From positions 2,784,254 through 2,848,253 of the forward strand of contig JAJEKV010000052.1 in assembly GCA_021234155.1 (NCBI GenBank): 64,000 bases of DNA. Reading direction: 5' to 3'. Source of the stretch: Isoetes taiwanensis. Taxonomy: Eukaryota > Streptophyta > Lycopodiopsida > Isoetales > Isoetaceae. The position numbers and the translations under genes were made by a program. This document shows positions 504-62,440 of this stretch, piece by piece. Position 1 is the stretch's first letter, and every line of letters begins with the position of its first letter. The notes under the pieces were generated by a model. It made no database searches and was not told the origin of the DNA. It worked only from the letters and a program-made list of their open reading frames with translations.

Positions 504-1204
504 GATGATGTTCTCACAAAGACTATGTACAATTAAAGTTTAACAACAATTAAAAGACTTCGTTCAAAGTGAGCACATATTTCCCAATACCTACCCTGGG
601 TTTGAAACCAGGCCACATCAGGTACTCCTACTCCCATTTTAATCTTTAACGTTTTGGAAAAATCATATAAGAATATAATACAAGTAATAGATTTCATCTT
701 TAGATATCACAGTATTAAATAGATCATGTAACTTTTTCATTTAATCATAATTGTTTCATTCAAGTTTTAAACTGTAGACATAGGCTTGGTAAATCTTGTT
801 TTTTTGGAAAATACAACCTGAAATATCATTAACATATACGTATCTGGATCCTTAAAGAAGTAGTTCAGTAATATTCAATTTTTTATATAAGCTATCATCA
901 TTCATATATTTCAGAGCAGAGCTGGATCCATGAAGATCTATTCAATTTTCAGTATTTAGAATTTTTCAATTCACAAACACAACCATTTGTGAGCAAGATA
1001 CACTATTATGTAGTCTGTACCAACTTAAATAGAACCAGACCAGTCATATACTTGTCTAACTTGTCACCACTTGATTGTACTTCCATTTAAAGAGGAAAGA
1101 TCTCACCAAGTATTGGTACAAGCATTGCATCAGACCATGTTCTTCTTATGGTCCATTGATTGTAACACCAAACATCCGAAAATAACTCCAGGAGAGAGAG
1201 TAGG

Positions 1205-1318
1205 AGAGAGAGTTCTGGTTACCTGCACCCAAGCAATGACAAAGTTAGCATAAATTGGTAACTAGCCAAGGGGCGTCAGGTAAGCTATAGAACACTCTGG
1301 CTTATCGCCCTTCACCTA
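1205..1318 (-). promoter_or_regulatory. PK pseudoknot covering a 3' splice site, E1
   Basis: On the - strand, AAGGGCG pairs with CGCCCCUU, and between and beyond them AGAGNGUUCU plus UUACCUG pairs with CAGGUAA plus AGAACNCUCU. The arms alternate a-b-a'-b', a pseudoknot. The long loop carries UGCUAAC, and UGCAG|GUAACC starts inside arm b'. Confidence 0.65.
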
Positions 1319-4296: not shown

Positions 4297-4297
4297 T

Positions 4298-19474: not shown

Positions 19475-20356
19475 CCCACATCCCTCCCTCAGGATGTAGG
19501 ACACCACTTTTTATAAGGAAAGTAGGACACCCCCTTATAAAAAGAGGGGTCCTACTTCCTTACACCAGAAGAAAGCAGATTAATCTGCATGAGATATTGA
19601 TATTTTGAAATTTAGAGTATTAGGTACATTGGCCCTAATCTCTATGCCATGGCACTATGGACCAAGGTCTTTTTATAATCTTAATATGTACGTACAGCAC
19701 AGTGGGCCATACATACCATGGATAGCCAGATATATGCATTATGTCATTTCATAGGCTATGGACCATTTACCATAAGATATGGTAGCGAAACCATTCAACT
19801 GTAATAGAACATAATATCAGTTAGTAATGCTAGATCCAAATAAGGAATCAACATTATTTAATGGTTTCGGAAATGATGTGTTTCCTGAATACCTCCAGCA
19901 AATAGATGTCACAGTTTCTTCTCCGAATATGTTCTTACAAAGACTACGGTCAGATAATGTTAAAAAACATTTAAAAGCCTCGTTCAGAGTAAGGACATGT
20001 CTCCCAATATCTACCCTGGTGTTTTATGCCAGGCCACATCAGGTACTCCTACTTCCATTATCCCTTAATATAATCAACATTTCACAATATAGCTTAAATT
20101 TAGATCTTATTGTAATATGTATAACATGTACTTAAACCTTTACTTGAAATAGTAATCATTCTTTATTTATTTATCATGAAAAATATAATCGTCTTACAAT
20201 ATCAATTTGCCAATAGAAAGATCTCACCAAGTTCTTGCCATAAATCATATTCCTCTTCAATCTTTTTATAACTCTTTAACTCAGCAATTTTGATTCCAAA
20301 TATTCCCATCTCTTTCGAGTTAACGACCACCCTAGAAACAAAATAGAGACAATTGG

Positions 20357-20490
20357 AGGAGAGAACCCGTACCTGCAGCCAATCAATACACAATTAGCAT
20401 GATAATGGTAAATGTGCAAGGGCCAAAAGGTACATTGGGTCTCTCAGTTTATCACTGATCACCAATTGTATCCTTTTGCCCTAAGGTGAC
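20357..20490 (-). promoter_or_regulatory. PK pseudoknot, E7
   Basis: Nearly identical to E3, with all arms, branch point UGCUAAU and UGCAG|GUACGG intact. One base changes next to arm a (CTGAGG to CTAAGG). Confidence 0.62.
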
Positions 20491-24852: not shown

Positions 24853-24963
24853 CTTCTTCTTCTTCTTCTTCTTCTTCTTCTTCTTCTTCTTCTTCTTCTT
24901 CTTCTTCTTCTTCTTCTTCTTCTTCTTCTTCTTCTTCTTCTTCTTCTTCTTCTTCTTCTTCTT

Positions 24964-26742: not shown

Positions 26743-27539
26743 ATTCTGCATGACAAAGCATCTATGAGAACTATATAACTTAGTGAGTCATCATAATCAC
26801 TATTTCCAGAAATCGTGACATCTATATTCATAAGACTTAGGCAGCATTTTCCTGAATATTATCATTCATGAGCAGTCTTACTATGTCAAGCATTAGTAAT
26901 CTTCGGATACAAGGGTAAGTAACCCAATAAAAGCCATAATATTTTGTTACGGTTGATGATCAACTTACTATCATCTTTTATAATCTGTCACCAGATAAAT
27001 ATCAGATATGCATGAACATCTATTTATTAATCTTACATAAACACCTCATTATTTGGTCTAAAAGACCCCAAAAATTTGGCATATAGCCCCTTGTATTTAT
27101 CATATAATCCGTGATTACAATCGAGAGACATTGCAATACTATTACAAAAAGTATTTTTCTTATGTAATTATATCAAAAGCCCACAATCGTATTCGGAAGG
27201 TATAATAACAAGATATATCCGTTATTCATCACAAAACCGAGCTCCAAAATGCTACAATACATATGCCATCTTAGCCAAAGATCGTATCATAACCGATATA
27301 TCTCAACCCTTCATAAGCCTTCATTGGGTATCTCCATCATGAGCCATACTTGATCTCATATAGGGCTCCTTTTTCAAAAGTACGATCTTTTATTGTATTG
27401 ATATGATATTAGGCATCATGCCTTATATCTGCCCTGTTGAAAAGAAACAAGGGCACCAAAATTAGTAGATATTTCTACTTTTGGTCATATATAATTGACC
27501 GTCCATAATTGGATCTTTAAAGCATGTAAATATCCTTAC

Positions 27540-29030: not shown

Positions 29031-29802
29031 CTACATGAAAAAATGCAAAAAGTAAGTAATCCAAACCACTCCAAAGATTACTCATTGATATTGAGAGGAT
29101 TATCGTGTTTGTTGGATAACTCCAACAAATGGAAATCACAATTTCTTCTTGTTAATGTTTACGTCAAAATTTTACTGTTATATGAACCAGTCATAAAAAC
29201 AGCTCCATCTAAGAAGTAAACTGTCCAAAAATATCCATCCTAGTATTAACTAGGCCACAGCATAAAGCAACCCTCAATATATTGGTCAACAACTTATATT
29301 ACTATTTACTAGCTTTTAATAACTAATTTTCAAAAATTTCCATTCACGTTATCCCATTGTCATTTTACAAATCATATTTTTTTCACTTCTCAACTTTTGC
29401 ATATCCTTTTTATTTTTGAACTTTTAATATCATTACATTATCCAACATACAATCTGATAATATGATCTCAAATAAAAATTCCTGATATATTCATTGTTCA
29501 CTTATGTTACATTATATCCGTTCAGCTTTACCCTGTTTAAATTTTCAATCATTTCAGCTTGTAGTACTTTAAAATTTCATTTGTTCCAACCATCATAAAC
29601 TGCCAAAACTGCAGTGACTACTCACTATTAGAGAAACCATACATTTAAGTAGCTTTTTTTTCCACAAAGTATTAAGCTACGCAGTGTTCTTGCATTATAG
29701 AACGATCTCACCATGTCCATAGTCAGTATGACATAGTATGTTTTGGTAATAACTCCGTATCCTCATTGTGTAACCCGAAAGCCTTAAAAAGAACTTGTAG
29801 GA

Positions 29803-29918
29803 GGAGATGTTTAGGTTACCTGCATCCAACCAATACACTAGTTAGCAATAATATGGTAAAAGTGCAAGGGACGTCCGGGTAAGCATTTAAACATCTCGGC
29901 TCTTCGCCCTTCACCTAA
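29803..29918 (-). promoter_or_regulatory. PK pseudoknot, E9 coding type
   Basis: Arm b GAGAUGUUUA pairs UAAACAUCUC perfectly, a sequence unlike any other type. Arm a AAGGGCG pairs with the GUCCCUU side. The branch point is UGCUAAC and the splice site UGCAG|GUAACC. Confidence 0.65.
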
Positions 29919-31025
29919 TTATTCAATAAGTATTACGGGTCAGAACCTCTGGACCCCATTAACTATGCAGTTAGCCCAGCAAGTACGAAATAACAAGTGG
30001 TCTTTAATTTCCAATCAGCTGTTTACCACAGTAGATCAACCATTTTTCAATATCTATCTTCCAATAGACCACACATTTAGCTGAAACATTTCCTTCTTCC
30101 CATACATGTAGTATACAGTTATCTTAACTTTTTTAATCATTATACTAGTGCCCCCTTAACTGATAACATGATTTAAAACCTCTGTAGAGACGATTCATAG
30201 CATGACCATTCCACAAATTATGCATCTAAGCATACAGTCCTACTAATAACCTGTGTATAAAGCCATAGATTAAGTCCACATACAGTCCATCCAGGCATCC
30301 TTTTATGATTGTGCAAGAAAAATATGATTCTCTAAAAGACCTTCCTAACTTGTCAATTTTCCGGCTGCCCAAAACAAGTTCATATGCATTCTTATAGTCT
30401 GCATTTTCTTGCATCTGTTAAATGCATCCAGAGCCACCCAATACATTAAGATCATGCAGGCCCTGCTTATGCATTTCTTTAAGACAAATGTAGACGACCA
30501 TAAAAAGGTAGTATGGCATTTTATCATTAATAAGGCAGCATCTATCTGCAACTATAACATTCTATTAGCATAAACAAGTAGCTTGAGATGTAATGTGAAT
30601 AAACCAATCCATCAATCTGAGGTATGTGAACAATATAGCGGATGTAAATATCTATTATGTATAAGCATGGCAGCATATCGTTCCTACCCCAAGACTCTTC
30701 CTTATGTGTAGCCAATAATAACCACAGTCATCGCATGCATATATTTAAAACAACACATAATACATTCCATATCAAGCCCACTGTTTTAAGGCCCATATCT
30801 CATCAGACAATCGCATACAAGCAATATGGACTGTACCAGACTCTCCATCTATCGTAATCTATCAGCACACACAACCCATATAGCCTTAACTTCGCCCATT
30901 GGATTACTAGGCGACATGCAAAGCAGGCTTATCTCTGTTCTAGCCGCAGCATATGTTAAAGACCATGCATTGTCTGAGAAAGCATAGGGAAAGAAGGAAA
31001 AGAAACTCTTTGAGCCAAAGGAAAC

Positions 31026-31193
31026 CTGTTTTGGTTCGCTCCTTTCACTAGCAGCAGCTCGGACGTCTCTTGCAACAATAGCCTGCCTCCCACCACCATT
31101 ATTTGGCCCACGAAATCTTCTATACGGGAAGTTACCAGCTTGCTGGGCTCTGCTCCTGTTACCTGGCTGCCTTGTGTAGACACCTTTCGGCAT
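31026..31193 (-). CDS. First exon, MPKGVY basic protein, E9
   Basis: This has 56 codons from ATG (31191-31193), beginning MPKGVYTRQPGNRSRAQQAG and ending RSEPKQ at CAG|GTTTCC in phase 0. It is rich in Arg, Gly and Asn, with a FPYRRFRGPNNGGGR stretch, so RNA or DNA binding is plausible. ORF2 also starts in phase 0, so splicing from this donor to the ORF2 acceptor gives one continuous protein with a basic N-terminal tail. The MPKGVY start resembles the beginning of NUMOD3-type DNA-binding segments, but the helix that should follow is not seen. Confidence 0.6.
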
Positions 31194-31962
31194 TTTTCTC
31201 AGAGTAACAACGAATGGCAGTATCACTAGGAGGTTTTTGAGCGGTAGAGCATATAGCGGAGAGCAAACAAGGCGCAAGTAACTTATCCTTCCCGCCGGAC
31301 TTATGATATAAGGAACTGCTTAAGTCATATAACATATACGAAAATAAAGTCCTGGTCATACCTCATAAATTCGGCCAGCACAATCACTACACAATATTTG
31401 GTATCCATCTCGATTTCGAGTTCTCCACCAAGGTCTCGAGCCGTCAACATAAAATGAGGTCTGGCTGATTACTTTGGGTCTAATCAAAAGCATACCCATT
31501 ACATTAATTTAACAAAATATCCATATATTAATAAATATGAGACCATGGTTTTTATTCTTAGATATTGGTGTACACCCTTCGAAATACAACTCCACCATAA
31601 GATTTTATACCAACAAGTATGTTCCAGGGGCCCCAACAACATAAGCCCTGAAGTTAAACGTACATACTTCATCTAGTCATAATAGTTATGTGGCATAAAA
31701 CATATGATTCTGCAAACACAACTTAATGCATAAGACAATGGTCCAACACCTTTGTTTCTAAGCATCCCAAGCTTTAAGGCATTTGAGCAGCACCTAGAAT
31801 TTCATGTACCCAAACATATAGTGAGCATCTCTATGTCCCATTTTCATAATCGTAAACCTTTATAAACACTAGTGCATGATATCCCTGACATCCAGTAATA
31901 GTGGTACCATGTGTCTTTTTAACAAAACCACTTGGTACAATCTCAAAATATCACACAGATTT

Positions 31963-31980
31963 ATTTCTTTTTCTTCTTCC
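31963..31980. repeat. Short AAG-rich tail of E10
   Basis: Only two to three CTT units within TTTCTTTTTCTTCTT, at the T-module end of E10. The same short form is at 39357-39372. Confidence 0.75.
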
Positions 31981-32075
31981 CACAGCCCACCCTCGAGCAG
32001 TAGGATCCATCACATCAATGGAAGTAGGGTATAGGACCCTCCATCCATGATGGATGGGGTCCTACTACCCTACAA
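31981..32075 (-). promoter_or_regulatory. T module, E10
   Basis: On the - strand UAGGACCC-CA-UCCAUC pairs GAUGGA-GGGUCCUA in a near-perfect hairpin, followed by a second weaker one and CGAGGGUGGGCUGUGGG before the tail. The first stem has a different sequence from E4, E12 and E16 but pairs equally well. Confidence 0.65.
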
Positions 32076-32077
32076 CC

Positions 32078-34148
32078 TTATTCAAGCAAATTCTTCATGT
32101 CTTTTATGTTAAATGCAAGACCAGGAAACTTGTTAGAGTTGAGCATCCTATGTACATTCTCCATAAGGTCATCCTTATGAAAGCCATTATGCACAAACTC
32201 TTGTATTAGCTCATTCAAATCCCATGCAGCTGCAACATGGCTACTGTGCACATATAAATAAGGCAGAATTTGAGAGATGATTACTCGGCTAGCGTTCAAA
32301 TATGGCCGGCAACCGGAAGCATGGATAAATTTTATCATCTCAAATGGAAGTTTATTCCGCTTATCATATCTTGTAGTCTTAAATAACCCAGCCACATGAT
32401 CTATCACTTCAATGGTAACATTAAGGAAGTTACCTTTATAACCCACCAATCCTGTATTATCTTCTCTCGCTCTGTATTCAGTCTCATTTTTGATATGCAA
32501 GACCTTCAGATTATATATATTGAAACTTTCACTATTGTCCTGGCCATTTAAGAAAAATTCTTCCAGGCCACCACCATTGGGAATGCATACATCATCCATG
32601 TATCTTCTTGCATCCCTAAATTTTAAAATATCTTTGAATCTTCCAGCTTTAGCAAGTCTTTCAATATGAAGCATTTCAAAGAATGACAAGTAAATATTAC
32701 ACCAATCAGGGGAACATGCGAAACCCATCGGAATTCCACATGCCTGCCTCCATACATTAGATCCTTGAATTATAAAGCAGTTGCATAAAAGCCACGTATT
32801 CAGCTCATAAAATTCATCTTTAGTCATGCAAATCCAGCCACCATCATCTTTCTTTTTACTGTCCCAGCCACCAACAATGTCATCCTTTATTATTTTGAAC
32901 CAGAATTTACATTCATCATGGTTTCCACTCATATATCCTACTGCCATATTGATTACTTTTTTGATCACCAAGCATATCCCATCCTCCCCAATCAAGGGAA
33001 TGTTCTCATAGCACTTGGAGATATCAGCAGTGTAAATATCATGTATCTTAGAAGGCAGATTGAGCATAAAATCATATATTGAATTAACAATCCAGAAAGG
33101 ATTAACACATCCTGGCAACAATACATTTACTTTACTAAGCCTATGCATGTATGCCCCAGGCAGAACCTCCAAAAAGCCTTTCAATCCTCTTGTAACTATT
33201 TTAGCAGGAGTGTAAAAATGGTTTTATTTGCATTTGTGATCCATCTGTAGTCGGCTTTGTGAGCCTTGTATGTGCCCAATAAATAGGGAATCTTATCATT
33301 ATACTTGACCAACCAAGTGGAATTTACCTTCCAGCTCACTGCTTAATCTTTTTTATCAGCAATTCTTTATCTATCTTACATTTCTCGAAATCATTTCCAT
33401 TAAGTCGCAGCCTAGCCATCTCTCTAATATGCCAGGGGCATATGAATGATGGCACATTTGTTGCCTTGTCGACCCCTGCTATATACAAGTTACGTACTAA
33501 CCAATCAATGCATGCTAGTACCTTGACATCTTCGATCACACATTTAATCTTCTTCATATTTTTAAAAAACTTGACAGCATCATGCCCAATGTTCTTAATC
33601 AGATTCTGAATTATGCTCCTCCTTTCATAGGGGTGCAGTAATCTACCTCTGCCCTCATGGAATGTAAACAGATCCTCAAAACCTCTATTAAGATCAGTCA
33701 TAAATTCATCCATATTTAAAGGTCTATCTGGTATGAAATTTAAGCCTTTCTTTAGCATATTTCTGAGTCCTTTCGATTTTACAATGCTGAGGTCTAAAGT
33801 TCTCACATGACCCACTTTTTTATCAATAAATTTTGCCATACCTGGTTTATGGCAGACACAATGCGGTACCTGGTCATCAGCAAATATCTTATATGGTTTG
33901 TATAGGTAATCGGTCAATTTATCATCATATTTCCAACCGAAACTTGAATCATCCACAATATGAGTTCCAAAATCCCCAAGCCTTAGAACAACATATTCTT
34001 TGAAGTGTTTACGAATATCCACTTTATCAATGACTTTCGATGAGAACAAGAAGTGTGCCCTTACCTTCTTTTTAATAACCACATTGGCCTTCATCAAAGT
34101 TTTTCGGCCATCATGACCTCGTCCAATACTTCTGTCGTTGTCATCCAT
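32078..34148 (-). pseudogene. Reverse transcriptase, E10, interrupted by frameshifts
   Basis: This enzyme would copy the element RNA into DNA. The N-terminal part (33336-34157 frame) carries LRNMFRKGLNFIP-like sequence. The C-terminal 368 codons carry motif A TADISKCYENIPL, motif B QACGIPMGFACSP, motif C RRYMDDVCIPN and the GNFLNVTIEV and YDKRNKLPF blocks that in Penelope-like RTs follow motif C. The frame is lost between 33185 and 33335 by several single-base differences from E11, which is open there. No GIY-YIG endonuclease domain is present. The breaks are private to this copy. Confidence 0.8.
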
Positions 34149-34935
34149 ATTCTGCATGACAAAGCATCTATGAGAACTATATAACTTAGTGAGTCATCAT
34201 AATCACTATTTCAGAAATCGTGACATCTATATTCATAAGACTTAGGCAGCATTTTCCTGAATATTATCATTCATGAGCAGTCTTACTATGTCAAGCATTA
34301 GTAATCTTCAGGATACAAGGGTAAGTAACCCAATAAAAGCCATAATATTTTGTTACAGTTGATGATCAACTTACTATCATCTTTTATAATCTGTCGGCCT
34401 GTATAAATATCAGCATATGCATGAACATCTATTTATTAATCTTACATAAACACCTCGTATTTGGTCTAAAAGACCCCAAAAATTTGGCATATAGCCCCTT
34501 GTATTTATCATATAATCCGTATTACAATCAGAGACATTGCAGTATTACAAAAAGTATTTTTCTTATGTAATTATATCAAAAGCCCACACTGTATTCAGAA
34601 GGTATAATAACAGTATATCCGTTATTCATCACAAAACCGAGCTCCAAAATGCTACAATACATATGCCATCTTAGCCAGCATCGTATCATAACTGATATAT
34701 CTCAACCCTTCATAAGCCTTCATTGGGTATCTCCATCATGAGCCATACTTGATCTCATATAGGGCTCCTTTTTCAAAAGTACGATCTTTTATTGTATTGA
34801 TATGATATTAGGCGCATCATGCCTTATATCTGCCCTGTTGAAAGAAACAAGGGCACCAAAATTAGTAGATATTTCTACTTTTGGTCATATATAATTGACC
34901 GTCCATAATTGGATCTTTAAAGCATGTAAATATCC

Positions 34936-36423
34936 TTACTTTTCAAAGACCAGTTGACCATGCACACCATCATAATTTCTTTGAAGATAATCTGGTCTGC
35001 TTTTATTCACAGATGCTTCTCCAGGTGTACAGCTAACAATTGTATCAGATTTTTCAGTCAAGTCTTCAATAATATTACAACTGTTAGATGTACTACCTCT
35101 CCTAACTTGAGGAGGGAGGTAACTTTCACTCCCATAGTTGGTCTTTTGAGTCTGAAAAGAGGAAGACTTCTGCTCCACATCAGGTTTTTTATTGAATTTC
35201 TTCTCCTTAAGCATTATTTCACATACTTCAACAAGTTTTGTATTGCCGAAAGTCTTAGCAATGTCACAGTTGGAGTTAACAGCCAGTTTGTTTGTCATCT
35301 TAATCATCGTATCCCGCACATGTAAATAAGCAAGCTGAGCCATAACTGGCTGTTTAAGGTTCTGTCTGATATAATGCAGAAAATAGCCCATTTTTCCAGC
35401 CATGGAAAACCTGGGGTAAACAAGCTCCAAGTGGTTGAATACAAACCATATTGCTTGGTCAAACCAAGTAATTGAGTCAGGGCAGCCAGTATCAGGCAAG
35501 CAGCTACATTTGATGTATGGACTCCAGCTTCTCCATATCTTGTGTAAATAAGCATACCCCCTCTCAGTATCAGGGTATCCCATATGGGCTTTCACAAACA
35601 GAGTTATCCCATTATTCATAATGCATTTCTTATCAAACAAGTTCGGCCCAAATGGGAAGTCCACCTCAAGATTATCAATAATCTTAACCATGTTATCGGT
35701 ATCCTTAATAATACTATCCATTTCATCTTCCTTAATGTCAGCCATCAGCATCCACGCTTTAGCACTGATTGGAGCTAGAATACTGAAATTGTTGCTCCTC
35801 CATAGGCCCTGCTGAAACTCTTCACCAAGCCATTCTATCGCCCTTTCAGAGATAATAGGGAACCTTCGGCAATTGTTCAGGGTTAATCTCACCAGGTTTT
35901 CTTTGGAACATCCCTTCAGATTTGCTTCCACTTCTTTCTTCATGAGGTCTATGTCATCCTTTGGGATGAATTTTGCAAATCCTTGGGTGGTCTCTCCTTC
36001 ATCCACACTACATTCAACCTGCTTCCCTTTGTTCTCTTTAACAAATGTATTATCTTTGAGCTTATGCACCTTTTCCAAGTATGTTACCCCAATTTTGCAT
36101 TCCATAGACAACATGTCATCAAGATCAGTACGATCTGCTAGTATATCTTGTGTATCACAAAACAGTTGTTGGATCATACCTTTGCATTCGTTCAATCTCA
36201 TACCTTTCTGGTCCATTAATATGAAAGTCTCCATCCAAGCACTAAACCCCAGGTGAATAATAGGAGAGAACTGACCAGCTCCAAGGTTCTTGTTTAGGGT
36301 CAGCAACAAGTTATGAATCTCAGCGTTGGGGATCAAACATAATATAGCCTGGACAGCATTATTAGGTGGAGACCCCACCTCCCCATATCCCAGATCCAGC
36401 AAGTACTTTGTCCAGTTAGTTCT
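34936..36423 (-). CDS. ORF2 protein, E10, function unknown
   Basis: An open frame of about 495 codons starts right after the acceptor TTTTTTCATGTAG|AGA in phase 0, reading RTNWTKYLLDLGYGEVG. It has no obvious ATG of its own, so it should be the second coding exon after the MPKGVY exon. It aligns over its whole length with E16 ORF2. Shared blocks are LCLIPN-EIH, ILADRTDLDDML, RFPIIS-AIEWLGEEF, GITLFVKAHM, a CxCx4C cluster (CSCLPDTGC), WLDQAIW and VRD-MIK-TNKLAV. The last 100 residues are polar and diverged. It is not recognised; a structural or RNA-binding role would fit but is a guess. It ends AAAAGTAAGGAT, where the stop overlaps a possible donor. Confidence 0.7.
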   Translation of the reverse strand, partial: RTNWTKYLLDLGYGEVGSPPNNAVQAILCLIPNAEIHNLLLTLNKNLGAGQFSPIIHLGFSAWMETFILMDQKGMRLNECKGMIQQLFCDTQDILADRTDLDDMLSMECKIGVTYLEKVHKLKDNTFVKENKGKQVECSVDEGETTQGFAKFIPKDDIDLMKKEVEANLKGCSKENLVRLTLNNCRRFPIISERAIEWLGEEFQQGLWRSNNFSILAPISAKAWMLMADIKEDEMDSIIKDTDNMVKIIDNLEVDFPFGPNLFDKKCIMNNGITLFVKAHMGYPDTERGYAYLHKIWRSWSPYIKCSCLPDTGCPDSITWFDQAIWFVFNHLELVYPRFSMAGKMGYFLHYIRQNLKQPVMAQLAYLHVRDTMIKMTNKLAVNSNCDIAKTFGNTKLVEVCEIMLKEKKFNKKPDVEQKSSSFQTQKTNYGSESYLPPQVRRGSTSNSCNIIEDLTEKSDTIVSCTPGEASVNKSRPDYLQRNYDGVHGQLVFEK

Positions 36424-37182
36424 CTACATGAAAAAATGCAAAAAGTAAGTAATCCAAACCACTCCAGCATTACTCATTGATATTGAGAGGATTATCTGTG
36501 TTTGTTGGATAACTCCAACAAATGGAAATCACAATTTCTTCTTGTTAATGTTTACGTCAAAATTTTACTGTTATATGAACCAGTCATAAAAACAGCTCCA
36601 TCTAAGAAGTAAACTGTCCAAAAATATCCATCCTAGTATTAACTAGGCCACAGCATAAAGCAACCCTCAATATATTGGTCAACAACTTATATTACTAGCT
36701 TTCCATAACTAATTTTCACAAATTTCCATTCACGTTATCCCATTGTCATTTTACAAATCATATTTTTTCACTTCTCAACTTTTGCATATCCTTTTTTTCT
36801 TTGAACTTTTAATATCATTACATTATCCAACATACAATCTGATAATATGATCTCAAATAAAAATTCCCGATATATTCATTGTTCACTTATGTTACATTAT
36901 ATCCGTTCAGCTTTACCCTGTTTAAATGCTCAATCATTTCAGCTTATAGTACTTTAAAATTTCATTTGTTCCAACCATCATAGACTGCCAAAACTGCAGT
37001 GACTACTCACTATTAGAGAAACCATACATTTAAGTAGCTTTTCCATAAAGTATTAAGCTACGCAGTGTTCTTGCATTATAGAACGATCTCACCATGTCCA
37101 TAGTCAGTATGACATGTTATGTTTTGGTAATAACTCTTCGTATCCTCATTGTGTAACCCGAAAGCCTTAAAAAGAACTTGTA

Positions 37183-37299
37183 GGAGGAGATGTTTAGGTT
37201 ACCTGCATCCAACCAATACACTAATTAGCAATAATATGGTAAAAGTGCAAGGGACGTCAGGTAAGCATTTAAACATCTCGGCTCTTCGCCCTTCACCTA
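37183..37299 (-). promoter_or_regulatory. PK pseudoknot, E10
   Basis: Same arms as the E9 coding type, without its CAG/CTG damage: arm b GAGAUGUUUA-GCUUACCUG against CAGGUAACC-UAAACAUCUC. A possible exon from 37202 down to 37093 (110 bases) lies between UGCAG| and |GTGAGATC. Confidence 0.68.
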
Positions 37300-38406
37300 A
37301 TTATTCAATAAGTATTACGGGTCAGAACCTCTGGACCCCATTAACTATGCAGTTAGCCCAGCAAGTACGAAATAACAAGTGGTCTTTAATTTCCAATCAG
37401 CTGTTTACCACAGTAGATCAACCATTTTTCAATATCTATCTTCCAATAGACCACACATTTAGCTGAAACATTTCCTTCTTCCCATACATGTAGTATACAG
37501 TTATCTTAACTTTTTTAATCATTATACTAGTGCCCCCTTAACTGATAACATGATTTAAAACCTCTGTAGAGACGATTCATAGCATGACCATTCCACAAAT
37601 TATGCATCTAAGCATACAGTCCTACTAATAACCTGTGTATAAAGCCATAGATTAAGTCCACATACAGTCCATCCAGGCATCCTTTTATGATTGTGCAAGA
37701 AAAATATGATTCTCTAAAAGACCTTCCTAACTTGTCAATTTTCCGGCTGCCCAAAACAAGTTCATATGCATTCTTATAGTCTGCATTTTCTTGCATCTGT
37801 TAAATGCATCCAGAGCCACCCAATACATTAAGATCATGCAGGCCCTGCTTATGCATTTCTTTAAGACAAATGTAGACGACCATAAAAGGTAGTATGGCAT
37901 TTTATCATTAATAAGGCAGCATCTATCTGCAACTATAACATTCTATTAGCATAAACAAGTAGCTTGAGATGTAATGTGAATAAACCAATCCATCAATCTG
38001 AGGTATGTGAACAATATAGCGGATGTAAATATCTATTATGTATAAGCATGGCAGCATATCGTTCCTACCCCAAGACTCTTCCTTATGTGTAGCCAATAAT
38101 AACCACAGTCATCGCATGCATATATTTAAAACAACACATAATACATTCCATATCAAGCCCACTGTTTTAAGGCCCATATCTCATCAGACAATCGCATACA
38201 AGCAATATGGACTGTACCAGACTCTCCATCTATCGTAATCTATCAGCACACACAACCCATATAGCCTTAACTTCGCCCATTGGATTACTAGGCGACATGC
38301 AAAGCAGGCTTATCTCTGTTCTAGCCGCAGCATATGTTAAAGACCATGCATTGTCTGAGAAAGCATAGGGAAAGAAGGAAAAGAAACTCTTTGAGCCAAA
38401 TGAAAC

Positions 38407-38574
38407 CTGTTTTGGTTCGCTCCTTTCACTAGCAGCAGCTCGGACGTCTCTTGCAACAATAGCTTGCCTCCCACCACCATTATTTGGCCCACGAAATCTT
38501 CTGTAAGGGAAGTTACCAGCTTGCTGGGCTCTGCTCCTGTTACCTGGCTGCCTTGTGTAGACACCTTTCGGCAT
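38407..38574 (-). CDS. First exon, MPKGVY basic protein, E10
   Basis: The same 56 codons as in E9, ending RSEPKQ at CAG|GTTTCC. A third-position change in the exon (GGCTTGCC for GGCTGCC-like bases near 38463) keeps the protein. It joins in phase 0 to ORF2 at 36423. Confidence 0.62.
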
Positions 38575-39356
38575 TTTTCTCAGAGTAACGACGAATAGCA
38601 GTATCACTAGGAGGTTTTTGAGCGGTAGAGCATATAGCAGAGAGCAAACAAGGTGCAAGTAACTTATCCTACCCGCCGGACTTATGATATAAGGAACTGC
38701 TTAAGTCATATCACATATACGAAAATAAAGTCCTGGTCATACCTCATAAATTCGGCCAGCGCAATCACTACACAATATTTGGTATCCATCTTGATTTCGA
38801 GTTCTTCACCAAGGTCCCGAGCCGTCAACATTAAATGAAGTCTGGCTGATTACTTTGGGTCTAATCAAAAGCATACCCATTACATTAATTTAACAAAATA
38901 TCCATATTTTAATAAATATGAGACCATGGTTTTTATTCTTAGATATTGGTGTACACCCTTCGAAATACAACTCCACCATAAGATTTTATACCAACAAGTA
39001 TGTTCCAGGGGCCCCAACAACATAGGCCCTGAAGTTAAACATACTTACTACTTCATCTAGTCATAATAGTTATGTGGCATTAAACATATGATTCTGCAAA
39101 CACAACTTAGTGCATAAGCCAATGGTCCAACACCTTTGTTTCTAAGCATCCCACGCTTTAAGACATTTGAGCAGCACCTAGAATTTCATGTACCCAAACA
39201 TATATTGAGCATCTCTATGTCCCATTTTCTTAATCATATAATGTAGTAAACCTTTATAAACACTAGTGCATGATATCCCTGACATCCAGTAATAGTGGTA
39301 CCATGTGTCTTTCTAGCAAAACCACTTGGTACAATCTCAAAATATCACACAGATTT

Positions 39357-39372
39357 ATTTCTTTTTCTTCTT
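39357..39372. repeat. Short AAG-rich tail of E11
   Basis: TTTCTTTTTCTTCTT, as at 31963, marks the head-to-tail junction of E10 and E11. Confidence 0.75.
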
Positions 39373-41621
39373 CCCACAGCCCACCCTCGAGCAGTAGGAT
39401 CCATCACATCAATGGATGTAGGGTATAGGACCCTCCATCCATGATGGATGGGGTCCTACTACCCTACAACCTTATTCAAGCAAATTCTTCATGTCTTTTA
39501 TGTTAAATGCAAGACCAGGAAACTTGTTAGTGTTGAGCATCCTATGTACATTCTCCATAAGGTCATCCTTATGAAAGCCATTATGCACAAACTCTTGTAT
39601 TAGCTCATTCAAATCCGCTGCAGCTGCAACATGGCTACTGTGCACATATAAATAAGGCAGAATTTGAGAGATGATTACTCGGCTAGCGTTCAAATATGGC
39701 CGGCAACCGGAAGCATGGATAAATTTTATCATCTCAAATGGAAGTTTATTCCGCTTATCATATCTTGTAGTCTTAAATAACCCAGCCACATGATCTATCA
39801 CTTCAATGGTAACATTAAGGAAGTTACCTTTATAACCCACCAATCCTGTATTATCTTCTCTCGCTCTGTATTCAGTCTCATTTTTGATATGCAAGACCTT
39901 CAGATTATATATATTGAAACTTTCACTATTGTCCTGGCCATTTAAGAAAAATTCTTCCAGGCCACCACCATTGGGAATGCATACATCATCCATGTATCTT
40001 CTTGCATCCCTAAATTTTAAAATATCTTTGAATCTTCCAGCTTTAGCAAGTCTTTCAATATGAAGCATTTCAAAGAATGACAAGTAAATATTACACCAAT
40101 CAGGGGAACATGCCGAAACCCATCGGAATTCCACATGCCTGCCTCCATACATTAGATCCTTGAATTATAAAGCAGTTGCATAAAAGCCACGTATTCAGCT
40201 CATAAAATTCATCTTTAGTCATGCAAATCCAGCCACCATCATCTTTCTTTTTACTGTCCCAGCCACCAACAATGTCATCCTTTATTATTTTGAACCAGAA
40301 TTTACATTCATCATGGTTTCCACTCATATATCCTACTGCCATATTGATTACTTTTTTGATCACCAAGCATATCCCATCCTCCCCAATCAAGGGAATGTTC
40401 TCATAGCACTTGGAGATATCAGCAGTGTAAATATCATGTATCTTAGAAGGCAGATTGAGCATAAAATCATATATTGAATTAACAATCCAGAAAGGATTAA
40501 CACATCCTGGCAACAATACATTTACTATACTAAGCCTATGCATGTATGCCCCAGGCAGAACCTCCAAAAGGCCTTTCAATCCTCTTGTAACTATTTTTGC
40601 AGGGAGTGTAAATATGGTATTATTCGCATTTGTGATCCATCTATAGTCTGCCTTATGAGCCTTGTATGTGCCCAACAAATAGGGAATCTTATCATTATAC
40701 TGACCAACCAAGTGGAATTTACCTTCCAGCTCACTGCTTAATCTTTTTATCAGCAATTCTTTATCTATCTTACATTTCTCGAAATCATTTCCATTAAGTC
40801 GCAGCCTAGCCATCTCTCTAATATGCCAGGGGCATATGAATGATGGCACATTTGTTGCCTTGTCGACCCCTGCTATATACAAGTTACGTACTAACCAATC
40901 AATGCATGCTAGTACCTTGACATCTTCGATCACACATTTAATCTTCTTCATATTTTTAAAAAACTTGACAGCATCATGCCCAATGTTCTTAATCAGATTC
41001 TGAATTATGCTCCTCCTTTCATAGGGGTGCAGTAATCTACCTCTGCCCTCATGGAATGTAAACAGATCCTCAAAACCTCTATTAAGATCAGTCATAAATT
41101 CATCCATATTTAAAGGTCTATCTGGTATGAAATTTAAGCCTTTCTTTAGCATATTTCTGAGTCCTTTCGATTTTACAATGCTGAGGTCTAAAGTTCTCAC
41201 ATGACCCACTTTTTTATCAATAAATTTTGCCATACCTGGTTTATGGCAGACACAATGCGGTACCTGGTCATCAGCAAATATCTTATATATCGGTCAATTT
41301 ATCATCATATTTCCAACCGAAACTTGAATCATCCACAATATGAGTTCCAAAATCCCCAAGCCTTAGAACAACATATTCTTTGAAGTGTTTACGAATATCC
41401 ACTTTATCAATGACTTTCGATGAGAACAAGAAGTGTGCCCTTACCTTCTTTTTAATAACCACATTGGCCTTCATCAAAGTTTTTCGGCCATCATGACCTC
41501 GTCCAATACTTCTGTCGTTGTCATCCATATTCTGCATGACAAAGCATCTATGAGAACTATATAACTTAGTGAGTCATCATAATCACTATTTCAGAAATCG
41601 TGACATCTATATTCATAAGAC
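39373..41621 (-). mobile_element. E11, 5'-truncated coding-family copy
   Basis: This contains T (39373-39468) and the RT, and is cut at 41621 just upstream of the RT start, where CATAAGACT joins AGTTGATC of E12. The two sides share ACT at the break. ORF2 and everything upstream are missing. Confidence 0.8.
39472..41528 (-). pseudogene. Reverse transcriptase, E11, three pieces
   Basis: Near-identical to E10 RT. It is open through 40100-41233, including the stretch where E10 is broken, but has an extra C near 40113 inside motif B (splitting QACGIPMGF from ACSPDW) and a deletion of about 14 bases near 41287. Since E9, E10 and E11 each carry different breaks, the family consensus is a complete RT. 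Confidence 0.8.
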
Positions 41622-41630
41622 TAGTTGATC

Positions 41631-42198: not shown

Positions 42199-43077
42199 GT
42201 TAGCATCTGTAATACATACACCGAATTATGAATTATGAATTGACAATTTAAGGATAAGCTATGTCTTGTTGGACTTGTCCAACAAAAAGGAAGTCACAAT
42301 TTCTTCTTATTTACAGTTCACATCTAGATTTACACAATATAATGTACAATTTACAATTACAATGCTCCATTCAAGATGCAAACCAAACCCAAAATATCCT
42401 TCCTGGCTTTTACCCCAGGCCATAGCTAAGGGACTTCCTTAAATTGCCATCACCTTGAGTACATCATACGTTTTCCACTATTTTTCTTAATTCGCTATGA
42501 TATTATGGCCCATTAACAACTACAATTTCATATCTCATACCTAAAGCTTATGTATTCTCCGTGTTGCAATCCACTATACTCCTATTATGTACAATACAAA
42601 TTTCCATTCTCAACAAATATTCAGCTGTATTTCCAACTTTATTTCTTTTCTTTGTTTACATTGAAAAGTCATCTTTCCATTCATAATGCATCAAATACAC
42701 ATTCTTTCAAAACCAAAACCTTTTACATTTTTTCGTATCACTGTTTACATACTCAATTATAAAATATAGCAAGTTTATTTTCATATCAAAGATCCATCTT
42801 ATTTCTGTTTTAATGTCATAAATCAAAATTCACTATTTGTGACTTCAAACACCTTGCACATATCTGTTTTACAGCAAAACAATAGCTCAAAGATTCTATC
42901 ACTCTTATCCATTTCCACAATCGTAATAAATCCTTAGAAAGTTATTTGGAATAATCTCACCAAGCTTTGTGTAGGCAGCGCCATAGAATTTCTTCAATTG
43001 AAGTAGACATTCAGCATTCTACTTCATCTTTTTGTAGCCCAATGCGTGCTACACCTAAACCTTGACAAAAGAATAGG

Positions 43078-43190
43078 AGAAGATGTCCTGGTTACCTGCA
43101 CCCAAACAGACCAATATTAGCATGAAAATGGTAATAAGGAAAGGGGCGTCAGGTAAGCTAAAGAACATCTTGGCTTATCGCCCTTCACCT
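43078..43190 (-). promoter_or_regulatory. PK pseudoknot, E12
   Basis: Arm b AAGAUGU...UUACCUG pairs CAGGUAA...ACAUCUU; arm a AAGGGCG pairs CGCCCCUU. The branch point is UGCUAAU and the splice site UGCAG|GUAACC. Confidence 0.65.
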
Positions 43191-44671
43191 ACTTTTGGCA
43201 AAGTTTCTGGCAGATTTTAAGCCATGTATTATGTTAGCTCAAAAGAAACCATCTTATTTATAATATTTTCAAGCTGACTATGGTTGCTTACCACAACCGC
43301 TAGTAGATCAGTTCTTATCATGTATTAATCTAAAAGAATCATCATTAATCAGAAACATACACTTGGTTTTAACCGCCAAATACCGTACAGCAGCCATGCC
43401 ATGGAGATGTCTTAAACCTTTTGTAATATTCCCAGTTTTTCAGCTTTCCATATGCTCTATTACTAGCATACTTAAAAATCAGAAATTGACAAACTGGTAC
43501 ACAGATAATGACAATGGCCTTGCCACAGTACCATTAAACAACAAGCAGCCAAACTAGGCTAAGAATATACTCTATTCATCAGATTTTCTGTTCTAAGTTA
43601 AGCTTGCCTATGCATTTAAACAAAACATCCCTTGAAGAAACTAAACTTCAGCCATAGAAAGCTCTAAATCTGTTTCTTATGTTGCAAGCCAGAACTGATT
43701 CCAGTTATACTAGCAACCTCTACTTCATTTTGCATCTGGATTCATACCAACACATATTTTTTCATCCAAAAAATATCAAGAACTCTGACCTGATGGGCGC
43801 CTCCCTGAGAATCAATACTTGGTCTTCGAATATTTGATGGTGCATTCCACTATGGCGCATTCCCAACTGTGGCTTCTAGCCTTCACAAATGCGCTTTGTA
43901 TTGTATATGCATTCGCCTGACATTTCTTGGACTGCCATTTCGTGGCATAGATCAACCGATTCACCTTTATTTCATGGCTCACAAGCTGAACAGAGGATTG
44001 ATGCATGTCCTATTGTAACGGCAGCATTCCAAGCCGCTTCTATAGGAGTAAAACTAGCTGGGTATGGAGCGTCCATACATAACCACGCTGAAACCAAGCT
44101 TTCACGACCAGATTTGCGGCTAGGGGTTCCAAAATAAGACATCACAAAGCATCTTCCGTTAGGTTACCAATACTCAATATCCACGTTTAGTATACAATAC
44201 CAATATTCAATAGCCAAAACAGAATATTGAGTCGTCAAAATTAAATTAAGCCTTTAAAGTCCTCACCTCTTTTAGACCAACTATTCCAAGCTTTAAATGC
44301 ATCCTTGGTGAAAGGTCCATCATGCAATCCTTACCGTATCATTAAATATTGGGTCAACATTGAAGATGCACTTCGTCTCCATTTAATTCTTTGGGTCATA
44401 AGGTCCACGACCCACACATATTAAATTATTGTGTCAATTCTAGAGTATAACAAAACAATGTACCACCTTTAAGTCCCATCGTCCTCTCACCTCTAACTTA
44501 TAGTCCTTAAGGACAATAATTATCATGTAATAAATGCCCTTATGTCTTAAATCACCTTTCCAATCCCTTACACCATCTTAACAATTTCTTTATATCTTAG
44601 CTCATGATCATCCACCAACATTTGCAAAAATTCAACACATACCTTATTTTCCTTTTGCTCACACTAGTTGA

Positions 44672-44703: not shown

Positions 44704-47700
44704 CCCACAACCCTCCCTCGGGTAGTTGAGCACTTCTTCTCATGGAAGTTAAGGAGTAGGACCCCTCTTCCATGGGAAGAAGGGCCCTACTACCTTACTG
44801 CCAAGAAAGCATTTTTTGTAATGTCATCTTAATGCATTCTTTGTATCCATATCACGTGCTCAAACCGTTATGGTATTATACTGCACTCAATCTGGTAAAA
44901 TATTCATGTATATGGATGGGGCACAATGGGCCAACATCCACTTCATATAGAGTGGCTCAGTGGGCCAGAAACATCATGTTTGATATGATGTTCTTAAAGT
45001 CTTATGATAAAACCTTAGACTATTAGTTCTCAGCCATATTCAACGGCTTATGTAATATCTTCATGTAATCAGATCCGTTTTTCCAGAAAATAAGTGGCAT
45101 ACAATCTGACCTGGACAATCCTTTATTGAAGCATATATCAGCAAATCTCCAGAGCATATCCGATATAATACTGGAGATAACCCGAGGTCCAGCAGATGCT
45201 TGAACCATCTTTTGTTTTTCTACATAGTCATAATTCAGCAAGTTAGCATCTGTAACACATACACCGAATTATGAATTATGAATTGACAATTTAAGGATAA
45301 GCTATGTCTTGTTGGACTTGTCCAACAAAAAGGAAGTCACAATTTCTTCTTATTTACAGTTCACATCTAGATTTACACAATATAATGTACAATTTACAAT
45401 TACAATGCTCCATTCAAGATGCAAACCAAACCCAAAATATCCTTCCTGGCTTTTACCCCAGGCCATAGCTAAGGGACTTCCTTAAATTGCCATCACCTTG
45501 AGTACATCATACGTTTTCCACTATTTTTCTTAATTCGCTATGATATTATGGCCCATTAACAACTACAATTTCATATCTCATACCTAAAGCTTATGTATTC
45601 TCCGTGTTGCAATCCACTATACTCCTATTATGTACAATACAAATTTCCATTCTCAACAAATATTCAGCTGTATTTCCAACTTTATTTCTTTTCTTTGTTT
45701 ACATTGAAAAGTCATCTTTCCATTCATAATGCATCAAATACACATTCTTTCAAAACCAAAACCTTTTACATTTTTTCAGATATCACTGTTTACATACTCA
45801 ATTATAAAATATAGCAAGTTTATTTTCATATCAAAGATCCATCTTATTTCTGTTTTAATGTCATAAATCAAAATTCACTATTTGTGACTTCAAACACCTT
45901 GCACATATCTGTTTTACAGCAAAACAATAGCTCAAAGATTCTATCACTCTTATCCATTTCCACAATCGTAATAAATCCTTAGAAAGTTATTTGGAATAAT
46001 CTCACCAAGCTTTGTGTAGGCAGCCATAGAATTTCTTCAATTGAAGTAGACATTCAGCATTCTACTTCATCTTTTTGTAGCCCAATGCGTGCTACACCTA
46101 AACCTTGACAAAAGAATAGGAGAAGATGTCCTGGTTACCTGCACCCAAACAGACCAATATTAGCATGAAAATGGTAATAAGGAAAGGGGCGCCAGGTAAG
46201 CTGAAGAACATCTTGGCTTATCGCCTTCACCTACTTTTGGCAAAGTTTCTGGCAGATTTTAAGCCATGTATTATGTTAGCTCAAAAGAAACCATCTTATT
46301 TATAATATTTTCAAGCTGACTATGGTTGCTTACCACAACCGCTAGTAGATCAGTTCTTATCATGTATTAATCTAAAAGAATCATCATTAATCAGAAACAT
46401 ACACTTGGTTTTAACCGCCAAATACCGTACAGCAGCCATGCCATGGAGATGTCTTAAACCTTTTGTAATATTCCCAGTTTTCAGCTTTCCATATGCTCTA
46501 TTACTAGCATACTTAAAAATCAGAAATTGACAAACTGGTACACAGATAATGACAATGGCCTTGCCACAGTACCATTAAACAACAAGCAGCCAAACTAGGC
46601 TAAGAATATACTCTATTCATCAGATTTTCTGTTCTAAGTTAAGCTTGCCTATGCATTTAAACAAAACATCCCTTGAAGAAACTAAACTTCAGCCATAGAA
46701 AGCTCTAAATCTGTTTCTTATGTTGCAAGCCAGAACTGATTCCAGTTATACTAGCAACCTCTACTTCATTTTGCATCTGGATTCATACCAACACATATTT
46801 TTCATCCAAAAAATATCAAGAACTCTGACCTGATGGGCGCCTCCCTGAGAATCAATACTTGGTCTTCGAATATTTGATGGTGCATTCCACTATGGCGCAT
46901 TCCCAACTGTGGCTTCTAGCCTTCACAAATGCGCTTTGTATTGTATATGCATTCGCCTGACATTTCTTGGACTGCCATTTCGTGGCATAGATCAACCGAT
47001 TCACCTTTATTTCATGGCTCACAAGCTGAACAGAGGATTGATGCATGTCCTATTGTAACGGCAGCATTCCAAGCCGCTTCTATAGGAGTAAAACTAGCTG
47101 GGTATGGAGCGTCCATACATAACCACGCTGAAACCAAGCTTTCACGACCAGATTTGCGGCTAGGGGTTCCAAAATAAGACATCACAAAGCATCTTCCGTT
47201 AGGTTACCAATACTCAATATCCACGTTTAATATACAATACCAATATTCAATAGCCAAAACAGAATATTGAGTCGTCAAAATTAAATTCGCCTTTAAAGTC
47301 CTCACCTCTTTAGACCAACTATTCCAAGCTTTAAATGCATCCTTGGTGAAAGGTCCATCATGCAATCCTTACCGTATCATTAAATATTGGGTCAACATTG
47401 AAGATGCACTTCGTCTCCATTTAATTCTTTGGGTCATAAGGTCCACGACCCACACATATTAAATTATTGTGTCAATTCTAGAGTATAACAAAACAATGTA
47501 CCACCTTTAAGTCCCATCGTCCTCTCACCTCTAACTTATAGTCCTTAAGGACAATAATTATCATGTAATAAATGCCCTTATGTCTTAAATCACCTTTCCA
47601 ATCCCTTACACCATCTTAACAATTTCTTTATATCTTAGCTCATGATCATCCACCAACATTTGCAAAAATTCAACACATACCTTATTTTCCTTTTGCTCAC

Positions 47701-47811: not shown

Positions 47812-48237
47812 ATGTTCTTGCCAAGACTACAGTCACAGTTATGCAAACAATTACATTAAAAGAACCTTGTTCAAGGCAAGATCACTTATCCCAATATCCA
47901 CCCTGGTTTTTTAGGCCAGGCCACATCAGGCACTCTACAAACCTTAGCCCATATAATTTACTATATTGAAAAATATCCAAAAATAAAAATCTTGAGTAAA
48001 ATAATTCATATCATCATTTCCATATTAGCATATCCAATTTGTACATAACGTTTTTGAATTTGAAAGTATAAGGTAATCAATCTTACAACTATAAGCTTAA
48101 ATCTTAACTTAAATCTTACAACTATGAAGTTTTGAATTTGAAAGTATGAAGTGTAAAGTAAACTTTGAATCTTGATGTAGCATATTCCATCCTCTTCCGC
48201 GTTAACGCCAACTCTAACGACAAAAATGGAGACAATT

Positions 48238-51936: not shown

Positions 51937-52041
51937 CAAGTGCAGATATAACCATTGTATTACGACCAAGTTCTTCTCCTGGTCCACCATTTGAACTAAA
52001 CACCAACCGAAAATAAATCCAGGAGGGAGAGTTCTGGTTAC
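51937..52041 (-). other. Candidate cassette exon, E15
   Basis: Exactly 105 bases between TGCAG|GTAACC and CACTTG|GTGAGATC. Phase 0 is open throughout (starting VTRTLPPGFIFGWC) and leaves in phase 0, so inclusion would keep the frame. In E9/E10 the matching segment is 108-110 bases and its third codon is a stop. Confidence 0.35.
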
Positions 52042-52138
52042 CTGCACCCAAACAGTGACAAAGTTAGCAACATATTGGTAACTAGCCAAGGGGCGTCAGG
52101 TAAGCAGTAGAACACTCCGGCTTATCGCCCTTCACCTA
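52025..52138 (-). promoter_or_regulatory. PK pseudoknot, E15
   Basis: Close to the E1 type: arm b GAGUGUUCUAC-GCUUACCUG against CAGGUAACC-AGAACUCUC, arm a AAGGGCG against CGCCCCUU. Confidence 0.63.
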
Positions 52139-59339: not shown

Positions 59340-60047
59340 CTATAAGGCAACCATCAGCAAGATTAGTATACCTGGTAAAATGCAACCAATATATTAAGGA
59401 ATGACTGTGTTTGTTAGATAGCTCCAACAAAAGGAAGTCCCAATTTCTTCTTATTCATATTTACATCAAAACTTCACATTATTTTGTTTAATAACAGAAA
59501 TATTGTTCCATATATGATGTAAACGTTTCATTAATATCCTTCCTAGTTATGCACTAGGCCACAGTCTATGGTACAATGTACCACCTTAATATATTAGGAA
59601 ATTTATTTTTTCAGCTTTAAATAGAGTCTTATTCATGTATTCAGTTTAAAGACAAAAAGAGAAGTAAGATTTAATCATAAAAAACAGACCATTATATGTG
59701 ATTTCATCATAAAGAGTACAAAGGTTGATTATCTCAAGAAAGACTATAATTATTTTATGAATGTCAAGTCATCATTTCTGAAATATAACAGATAAGGAGC
59801 ATATAACAGCAAAATTCTCAAGCTTTTATGTAAAAAATCAGACCATTACATATGAATACCAAATCCTTGTTTTATGCTGATTGAGTCTATGTAGATAATT
59901 TCCTTAAACTTTCAAATCTGAAGGATCTCACCATAGTGTCTCATAAGGTTCTAAACTTCTCATAGCACCATTTAATGCCTGTTCTTCGTACACGGCCCAA
60001 AATGCCATAGCATAATGACCTTTGACAATACAAAAGAGAACTCCAAG

Positions 60048-60164
60048 GAGAAGATATCTGGGTTACCTGCATCCAACCAATATACTAGTTAGCAATAATC
60101 TTGGTAATAGTATAAGGGATGACAGGTAAGCAGTTAGATATCTTGGCTCTTCGCCCTTCACCTA
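60048..60164 (-). promoter_or_regulatory. PK pseudoknot, E17
   Basis: Arm b AAGAUAUCU pairs AGAUAUCUU perfectly, with UUACCUG against CAGGUAA. Arm a is weaker (GAAGGGCG against AUCCCUU). The branch point is UGCUAAC and the splice site UGCAG|GUAACC. Confidence 0.63.
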
Positions 60165-62322: not shown

Positions 62323-62440
62323 ACAGAGATATAGAGTCTCTTACACCGCACCCAAACGTACCAATATTAGCATAAACATGGTAATAAGGAAAGGGCGTCG
62401 TAAGCAATGAGACACTATGGCTCTTCGCCCTTCACCTATC
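62323..62440 (-). promoter_or_regulatory. PK pseudoknot, E18 (damaged)
   Basis: The outer part of arm b survives (UAGUGUCUC against GAGACUCUA). TTACCTG and GCAGGTAA have lost their CTG/CAG cores (TTACGACG and GCGGTGTAAG), like the noisy copies of E5 and E9. Confidence 0.5.

Follow-up and report, generated by a model that had tools for sequence, protein, structure and literature searches.

Retroelements that keep introns in their genomic copies raise the question of which RNA serves as the template for reverse transcription. For intron-keeping Penelope-like elements, the choice between an antisense and an unspliced sense template was left open in the available part of a 2013 rotifer paper (PMC3846280). 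A locus of Isoetes taiwanensis bears on this question, as the original prediction placed there a covarying pseudoknot of order a-b-a′-b′ that would bury a 3′ splice site and thereby keep genomic RNA unspliced. The sequence was found where predicted, on the minus strand of the window (the whole stretch of 64,000 nucleotides that was analysed), and the coordinates of its parts and of the surrounding element are collected in Table 1.

The window, from an assembly of 1.66 Gb, is rich in tandem retroelement arrays in a single orientation, with unit lengths of 7.4, 3.5-3.7 and 3.0 kb; all nine ORFs of at least 150 aa and all 15 hairpins lie on the minus strand. The sense order in the 7.4 kb unit is exon 1, intron, exon 2, reverse transcriptase (RT) gene and 3′ region, and the exon 1 donor and exon 2 acceptor of intron 1 are both in phase 0. 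The RT motifs, as we take it, resemble those of Penelope-like elements, and the assignment of the element as a Penelope-like retrotransposon rests partly on these motifs. The 718-aa RT gave a weak RVT_1 match (E 0.00097, under the curated cut-off) and four relatives were found; an RT-based search of viral and prokaryotic collections returned zero relatives. Neither this RT nor ORF1 matched the GIY-YIG domain at E up to 1, and the confidence of the predicted structures was too low for structural searches (pLDDT 39.7 for RT, 32.5 for ORF1). The ORF1 exon 2 product of ~500 aa (56722-58242) had no NCBIfam match and none above the Pfam cut-off; in the E10 type, the part encoded by exon 1 is rich in Arg and Gly. 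No RT or ORF1 match was detected in the E1, E3 and E12 units, apart from a short exon 2 start in E12, seen by eye.

Table 1. Coordinates of the hairpin, its host element and the further hairpin copies in the window
Feature	Position	Strand	Remark
Structured RNA, three-way junction hairpin	37181..37299	minus	fold, covariation, model hit 126.8 bits
Outer stem o, 5′ side TAGGTG	37294..37299	minus	3′ side (CTCCTA) 37181-37186
Mini-hairpin e, GGC-GAAGA-GCC	37280..37290	minus	overlapped by arm a of the original prediction
Arm b, 5′ side	37270..37279	minus	3′ side 37187-37196, within cryptic exon
Helix c, 5′ side TTACCTG	37258..37264	minus	3′ side CAGGTAA 37199-37205, over splice site
Helix f, 5′ side CGTCC (a′ of the original prediction)	37252..37256	minus	3′ side GGATG 37206-37210
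Branch-point-like TGCTAAT in apical helix	37224..37230	minus	
Buried 3′ splice site TGCAG|GTAACC, acceptor next to donor-like GTAA	37203..37207	minus	
Candidate cryptic exon 1b (110 nt); third codon past exon 1 is a stop	37093..37202	minus	
Conserved donor box TG|GTGAGATC	37085..37094	minus	best conserved 10-mer
Tandem repeats of the 7.4 kb retroelement unit holding the hairpin	25514-41622	minus	
ORF1 exon 1 (MPKGVYTRQPG..., Arg-rich), end CAG|GTTTCA, phase 0	38407..38574	minus	
Intron 1 of ORF1, contains hairpin and cryptic exon	36424..38406	minus	predicted from sequence
ORF1 exon 2 (RTNWTKYLLDLGYGEVG...)	34936..36423	minus	
RT gene, frame broken, in 7.4 kb unit with main hairpin	32078..34157	minus	
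718-aa open relative of RT gene	56331-54175	minus	
Hairpin copy, adjacent tandem unit	29799..29917	minus	
Hairpin copy, type E17	60046..60164	minus	
Hairpin copy, type E52	52021..52138	minus	near E1 of the original prediction
Hairpin copy, type E12	43075..43191	minus	second copy 46118-46233
Hairpin copy, type E1	1202..1318	minus	
Hairpin copy, type E3	20354..20465	minus	
Further E3-type copies	5980-6091, 9648-9759, 13280-13391	minus	
Further E3-type copies	16732-16843, 25420-25533, 48237-48347	minus	
Hairpin copy, type E62	62325..62438	minus	acceptor AG lost

The RNA of ~118 nt folds into a nested structure composed of an outer stem o, a 3-bp mini-hairpin e and one long arm. The E10 hairpin reaches −40 kcal/mol (z −4.1), and the corresponding z values are −3.3 for E17, −2.6 for E52, −3.3 for E12, −2.8 for E1, −2.1 for E3 and −0.2 for E62, the last being a decayed copy that folds no better than its shuffles. 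Folded alone, five of the seven types (E10, E17, E52, E12 and E1) adopt the common nested shape, and E3 and E62 reach different minima. Arm b reads GAGATGTTTA/TAAACATCTC, and the mini-hairpin has the general form GGC-GAWRA-GCC, replaced by AGT-GATAA-ACT in type E3. The tip helix carries TTACCA and TGCTAA; the UGCUAA box, predicted as a branch point (UGCUAAC), lies base-paired in the arm tip. By eye, TTACCA and the donor letters TGGTGA could form six pairs, and both hardly vary. Between five lineages the hairpin is 66-92% identical, compared with 23-50% for the 300-nt flanks. G-U cells exceed A-C cells by 22 to 1 in helices o, e, b, c and f of 12 window copies and by 50 to 7 in 35 distinct copies, and the folded strand is therefore the sense RNA.

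Further copies were collected in two ways. A hairpin query of the genome gave 718 candidates, the best 40 of which all had E ≤2.9e-28; 39 of these 40 form the genome set, the 40th being the window's own 60 kb copy, and two members of the set (L011 and L013) are window copies too. Genome and window together yielded 54 model hits, 35 of them distinct. The second set was found via exon 2, independently of the hairpin, with 9/27 loci overlapping the first set by place; a hairpin was present in 26/27 of these loci, the weakest hit scoring 29.7 bits. In viral contigs, 10 pattern matches consisted of the 18-mer alone, with the rest of the hairpin absent by eye, and two longer hairpin patterns, one of which matches six window copies, gave 0 and 0 matches in the viral and prokaryotic collections.

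Pairing was evaluated in a hand alignment of 12 window copies, built along the structure; it excluded the 6.0 and 9.7 kb copies, both similar to that at 20.4 kb, as well as the copy at 16.7 kb, where the c′ and f′ letters are lost. Paired cells amounted to 49/50 for o, 32/33 for e, 112/115 for b, 74/77 for c and 60/60 for f. As predicted, arm b changes on both sides between types, namely in 9/10 pairs in the hand alignment, in 9/10 among the 35 distinct genome and window copies and in 8/10 among 25 distinct exon-2-found copies. Elsewhere, one pair of stem o is A-U in seven and U-A in three of the hand-aligned copies, two of the three pairs of e change on both sides (E3 types), one pair of helix c goes from U-A to G-C in the E3 types, and one pair of helix f takes three Watson-Crick types, UA, CG or GC, in the hand alignment and in the 35 distinct copies, and is UA or CG in the exon-2-found set.

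These changes were compared with a purpose-written tree null, in which the inferred changes were re-placed at random columns on the tree in 1000 runs, by counting the null alignments as high as the observed one in both-sided changes and then in pairing level. The counts for the hand alignment were 0 and 0 for b, 321 and 0 for f, 482 and 3 for c, 351 and 8 for o, and 17 and 108 for e. In the larger alignment of 35 distinct copies arm b again gave 0 and 0, next to 162 and 6 for f, 326 and 1 for c, 73 and 1 for o, and 60 and 4 for e. Taken pair by pair in the hand alignment, six of the ten b pairs, and no pairs of other helices, scored at a level where fewer than one chance hit would be expected over all column pairs. 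Because the hand alignment follows the structure, a MAFFT alignment of 14/15 window copies was also used; it was 89.3% paired with both-sided change in 14/33 pairs (1/500 shuffles as high), and further pair types were not above shuffles (487/500). The 35 distinct copies, in an alignment fitted to the model, were 96.5% paired with both-sided change in 18/33 pairs (0/500 shuffles as high; further pair types 173/500), and the exon-2-found set was 97.8% paired with 13/33 such pairs (0/500; further types 351/500). Arm b is proven by covariation, and o, c, e and f are supported by kept pairing with few changes; the original arm a is supported by neither.

The pseudoknot a-b-a′-b′ was consequently not retained: b passes the covariation test but a:a′ fails it. 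The a:a′ cells are paired in 47/55 cases in the hand alignment, and compensation is limited to one both-sided change in five pairs, namely the U-G of the 48.3 kb copy; as many were reached by 265 of 1000 null alignments (379 for pairing level; 397 and 20 with the 35 distinct copies). The letters of a′ pair better with GGATG, GGGTG or GGCTG just before CAG, forming helix f, while the 5′ letters of arm a form mini-hairpin e; a′ changes with f′, and a with e′. The E3 arm given as 'GGGCAAAA' lies upstream of the outer stem and is not homologous to arm a in the hand alignment. Even as a transient fold, for which the nearly invariant GGG and CCC, able to pair, and the 88% pairing in the 35-copy set would speak, the pseudoknot appears barely plausible to us.

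The placement of UGCAG|GUAACC at the inner end of arm b′ was confirmed, its AG ending 22 nt past the branch-like A. Beyond the original prediction, the analysis revealed the outer stem, helix c over CAG|GTAA, and a conserved donor TG|GTGAGATCnTTC situated 94-149 nt downstream of the buried acceptor. GTGAGAT follows TGG downstream in 11/12 window copies, the exception being the 25.4 kb copy. A scan of 10-mers between −1200 and +900 relative to the hairpin, run over seven lineages with E10 as reference, ranked TGGTGAGATC first in conservation, with one mismatch in total over the six other lineages, compared with best totals of 6, 7 and 5 mismatches in three shuffled sets. The window contains 15 sense-strand occurrences of TGGTGAGAT and zero on the opposite strand; of the former, 13 come after a hairpin, a further one falls in ORF1 and the last, at 4228, is fossil-like. 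Among 50 examined copies (39 loci plus 11 copies from the window; those at 25.4 and 48.3 kb, both without donor, were excluded), the acceptor pattern was absent in six, and all 44 acceptor-bearing copies had the donor box TGGTGAGA[TC] at exon distance; adding the 25.4 kb copy, which has the acceptor and lacks the donor, gives 44/45. In the exon-2-found set the acceptor pattern was present in 18/26, with the AG lost in one of these, and the donor in 23/26 with up to two mismatches.

The interval between the two sites, the candidate exon 1b, starts with GTA in all 33 distinct exons (search pattern TGCAGGTA, one mismatch allowed), and the 48.3 kb copy has TGCAG|TGC at the exon start. Exon-body 6-mers are less than 30% common to 17 representatives, in which both exon ends reach 2.0 bits of conservation, as against 0.0-0.5 bits at donor −20 to −6; for letters covered by the search patterns the value depends on the search itself, which is not so for the outer CnTTC. 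A near-invariant acceptor and donor around a drifting body suggest that the splicing machinery, or something obeying a similar rule, sees a small exon. Inclusion of exon 1b would break ORF1 in 30/33 distinct exons, 3/33 being in frame and open; since shuffled exons would contain a stop 93% of the time, such "poison" content alone means little. A coding role of exon 1b was rejected, as its frames and stops are not conserved.

Burial of the 3′ splice site is supported by the downstream donor and by the closed state of the acceptor octamer, which in 5/7 lineages ranks first, or in the top 1%, for closure among 700-nt windows. Its unpaired probability is 0.00-0.01 in 5/7 lineages and 0.24 and 0.25 in E3 and E62, respectively; the exon 2 acceptor of E10 is also fairly closed (0.15). 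The two competing donors, GTAA and the exon's own, pair with the U1 5′ end at −8.0 and −8.1 kcal/mol, and another site in intron 1 pairs better, at −8.9 kcal/mol. Conservation of GTAA is no proof of its use as a donor, because it is also needed for helix c.

Intron 1 was unspliced in 27/27 exon-2-found copies, with the hairpin kept in 26, and no copy with a spliced intron 1 was present among these 27 loci. The sole hairpin-less copy, L071, was rejected as a spliced copy since it carries a 456-bp deletion relative to L072 whose ends are not splice sites. Exon 1 relatives lie upstream of the hairpin in 30/39 genome loci; the exon ends in CAG|GT in all 17 loci whose match reaches its end, always with a pyrimidine next, which makes a weak donor, and at the 53 kb exon 1 of the window GTATAT stands in place of the usual donor. 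Exon 2 is preceded by AG in 26/27 loci (by eye). The originally proposed effect, that folding may keep genomic RNA unspliced, agrees with the 27/27 unspliced copies; intron retention would also be explained by an antisense template.

On this basis we give about an even chance to a structure-gated cryptic exon that helps to decide between unspliced template RNA and ORF1 mRNA. In the folded hairpin the exon 1b acceptor would be hidden and intron 1 would tend to stay, leaving an unspliced RNA fit for reverse transcription. Conversely, once the hairpin is opened, or before it has folded, the cryptic exon could be defined and exon 1 joined to its acceptor; removal of the intron would then be completed from the donor re-created where they join (CAG|GTAACC) or from the one downstream, giving either ORF1 mRNA or a stop-containing transcript. 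The overall scheme would be that of a recursive-splicing exon, or a poison exon, under the control of an RNA fold; we infer the use of the sites, the direction of the effect and the participation of any protein. A narrower proposal, in which the retrotransposon family would possess its own recursive-splicing exon, locked in a three-way junction whose fold state sets the shares of mRNA and template, is offered as tentative. Several observations argue against the gated exon: two window copies (25.4 and 48.3 kb) are without the donor and some copies without the acceptor, the buried acceptor has no pyrimidine tract (TTGGTTGGATGCAG), E3 and E62 bury it less, and by U1 pairing the ratchet donor scores about level with the exon's own and is not the best GT of intron 1. 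If true, the narrower proposal would provide a sense-strand answer to how Penelope-like elements keep introns, and a covarying sense RNA that masks an exon acceptor inside an intron offers a concrete, testable handle on the template question.

The hairpin could instead be a recognition element for the element's RT or Arg-rich ORF1 protein, with its intronic placement selecting unspliced RNA and its splice-like letters forming part of a putative binding surface. This alternative stays serious because arrays in which most or all detectable ORFs are gone still carry the hairpin. It is also in line with the Arg-rich exon 1 and with the GANRA-type loop in the 11 window copies having the mini-hairpin (a mini-hairpin with such a loop is absent in genome loci L040, L062 and L065), and, according to the part of the report available, an Anolis Penelope-like element needs pLTR-ORF junction RNA in vitro (PMC11167929). 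A donor at exon distance across an unconserved interval is not predicted by a recognition element, and we consider this reading less likely than the gated exon. That the splice letters delimit a short structured intron of ~94 nt, from a donor TAG|GTGAAG at the hairpin 5′ edge through the branch point to TGCAG| and followed by an ordinary noncoding exon, seems unlikely: TAGGTGAAGG is indeed joint second among the conserved 10-mers, with TTG|GTGATC at this place in E3, but no conserved upstream exon adjoins it (upstream flanks are 23-47% identical) and the donor letters also form the outer stem, including its A-U to U-A change.

Exon 1b might also be a 5′ leader exon that gives a start codon ATG| to a shorter ORF1 protein, in frame with exon 2, given that its last letters are ATG in 17/33 distinct exons, including the window's two ORF-bearing types. 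The presence of TTG in 14/33 and GTG in 2/33, and of earlier ATGs within the window's E10 and E17 exons, makes this improbable in our view. A self-cleaving ribozyme, like the hammerheads of other Penelope-like elements, would fit the conserved junction at a comparable place in the element. However, no Rfam match reached the gathering score, the seven weak matches included none that is a ribozyme or lies within a hairpin copy, and no standard hammerhead core (CUGANGA ... GAAA) was found by a pattern outside which permuted forms fall; the available part of PMC10085705, on permuted hammerheads, held nothing fitting this hairpin. As the strongly conserved segments are accounted for by pairing or splice signals, a ribozyme is hardly credible here.

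Other conserved blocks and junctions were observed in the same arrays. A second structured block follows directly after the RT gene or its place (39468-39359, 54142-54018, 44798-44672 and 19577-19441, minus strand), made up of two hairpins, one long (in one type GTAGGACCCC...GGGGTCCTAC) and the other GGGATG-type, and followed by (GAA)n in several copies; it is probably the 3′ end of the element. A third, noncoding block (36653-36488, 59564-59397, 45477-45291, 636-454 and 20060-19916, minus strand) lies ~400-800 nt past the hairpin and has GGCCTGG-type hairpins, GTTGGA-type in several types, and an internal GAAGAAG, where some copies have long (GAA)n with no ORFs after. Two 98% identical copies of (GAA)n, leader and exon 1 (59300-58422 and 54052-53175) stand on either side of the ORF1 and RT genes in the 54-59 kb unit, in the manner of pseudo-LTRs; in the former copy, exon 1 breaks off into block 2 without a hairpin, at a junction unlike a splice junction. 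The tandem repeats at 4294-5261 and 23934-24853 have units of 342 and 394 bp that are 83-87% alike. At 25514, a 3′-truncated RT gene runs directly into the interior of a hairpin of type E3, close to a short stretch that the two share (GATGAA/GATAAA); like its relative at 48.3 kb, this copy has no downstream donor. Small indels and changes cluster at one height of the hairpin (TTACCTGACG, ATGCAGG or both), in arms c and f, in the copies at 62325-62438, 29799-29917, 48237-48347 and 16732-16843 and in loci L056, L058, L060, L062 and L063, as if reverse transcription or repair slips there.

Structured splice sites are known, and retroviral packaging signals include cases of a splice donor sequestered by the fold of the leader. 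The present fold would similarly hide a splice site in the template form of the RNA, but it is mainly an acceptor that would be hidden, in an ORF1 intron of another element class, and packaging is not implied. Recursive sites are known mostly from introns much longer than ~2 kb, and the recursive donors that have been reported outrank that of the exon itself in strength. Both recursive exons and intron-keeping Penelope-like elements have already been described; a thin literature search, mostly of non-subscription papers, turned up no mobile element in which a conserved fold is said to gate an exon of recursive type. In the accessible part of PMC8605326, recursive exons are described as combining ultraconserved acceptor|donor motifs with bodies that are poorly conserved and, in general, out of frame. 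Like the recursive-splicing exons of Drosophila and vertebrates as described there, exon 1b is short, unconserved, out of frame and intronic, with a CAG|GTAA acceptor-donor and a second donor downstream (PMC8605326). Unlike them, it sits in a retrotransposon, in an intron of ~2 kb, has no pyrimidine tract and is enclosed by a covarying hairpin, and its splicing role is predicted from sequence. The element differs from the Penelope-like elements described in the available parts of PMC3846280 and PMC11167929 in its two ORFs with an uncharacterised ORF1, its GAA-type microsatellite tracts, the lack of a detected GIY-YIG domain (which some Penelope-like elements also lack) and of a detected hammerhead, and it shares with them the tandem or partial tandem copies and the introns kept in genomic copies.
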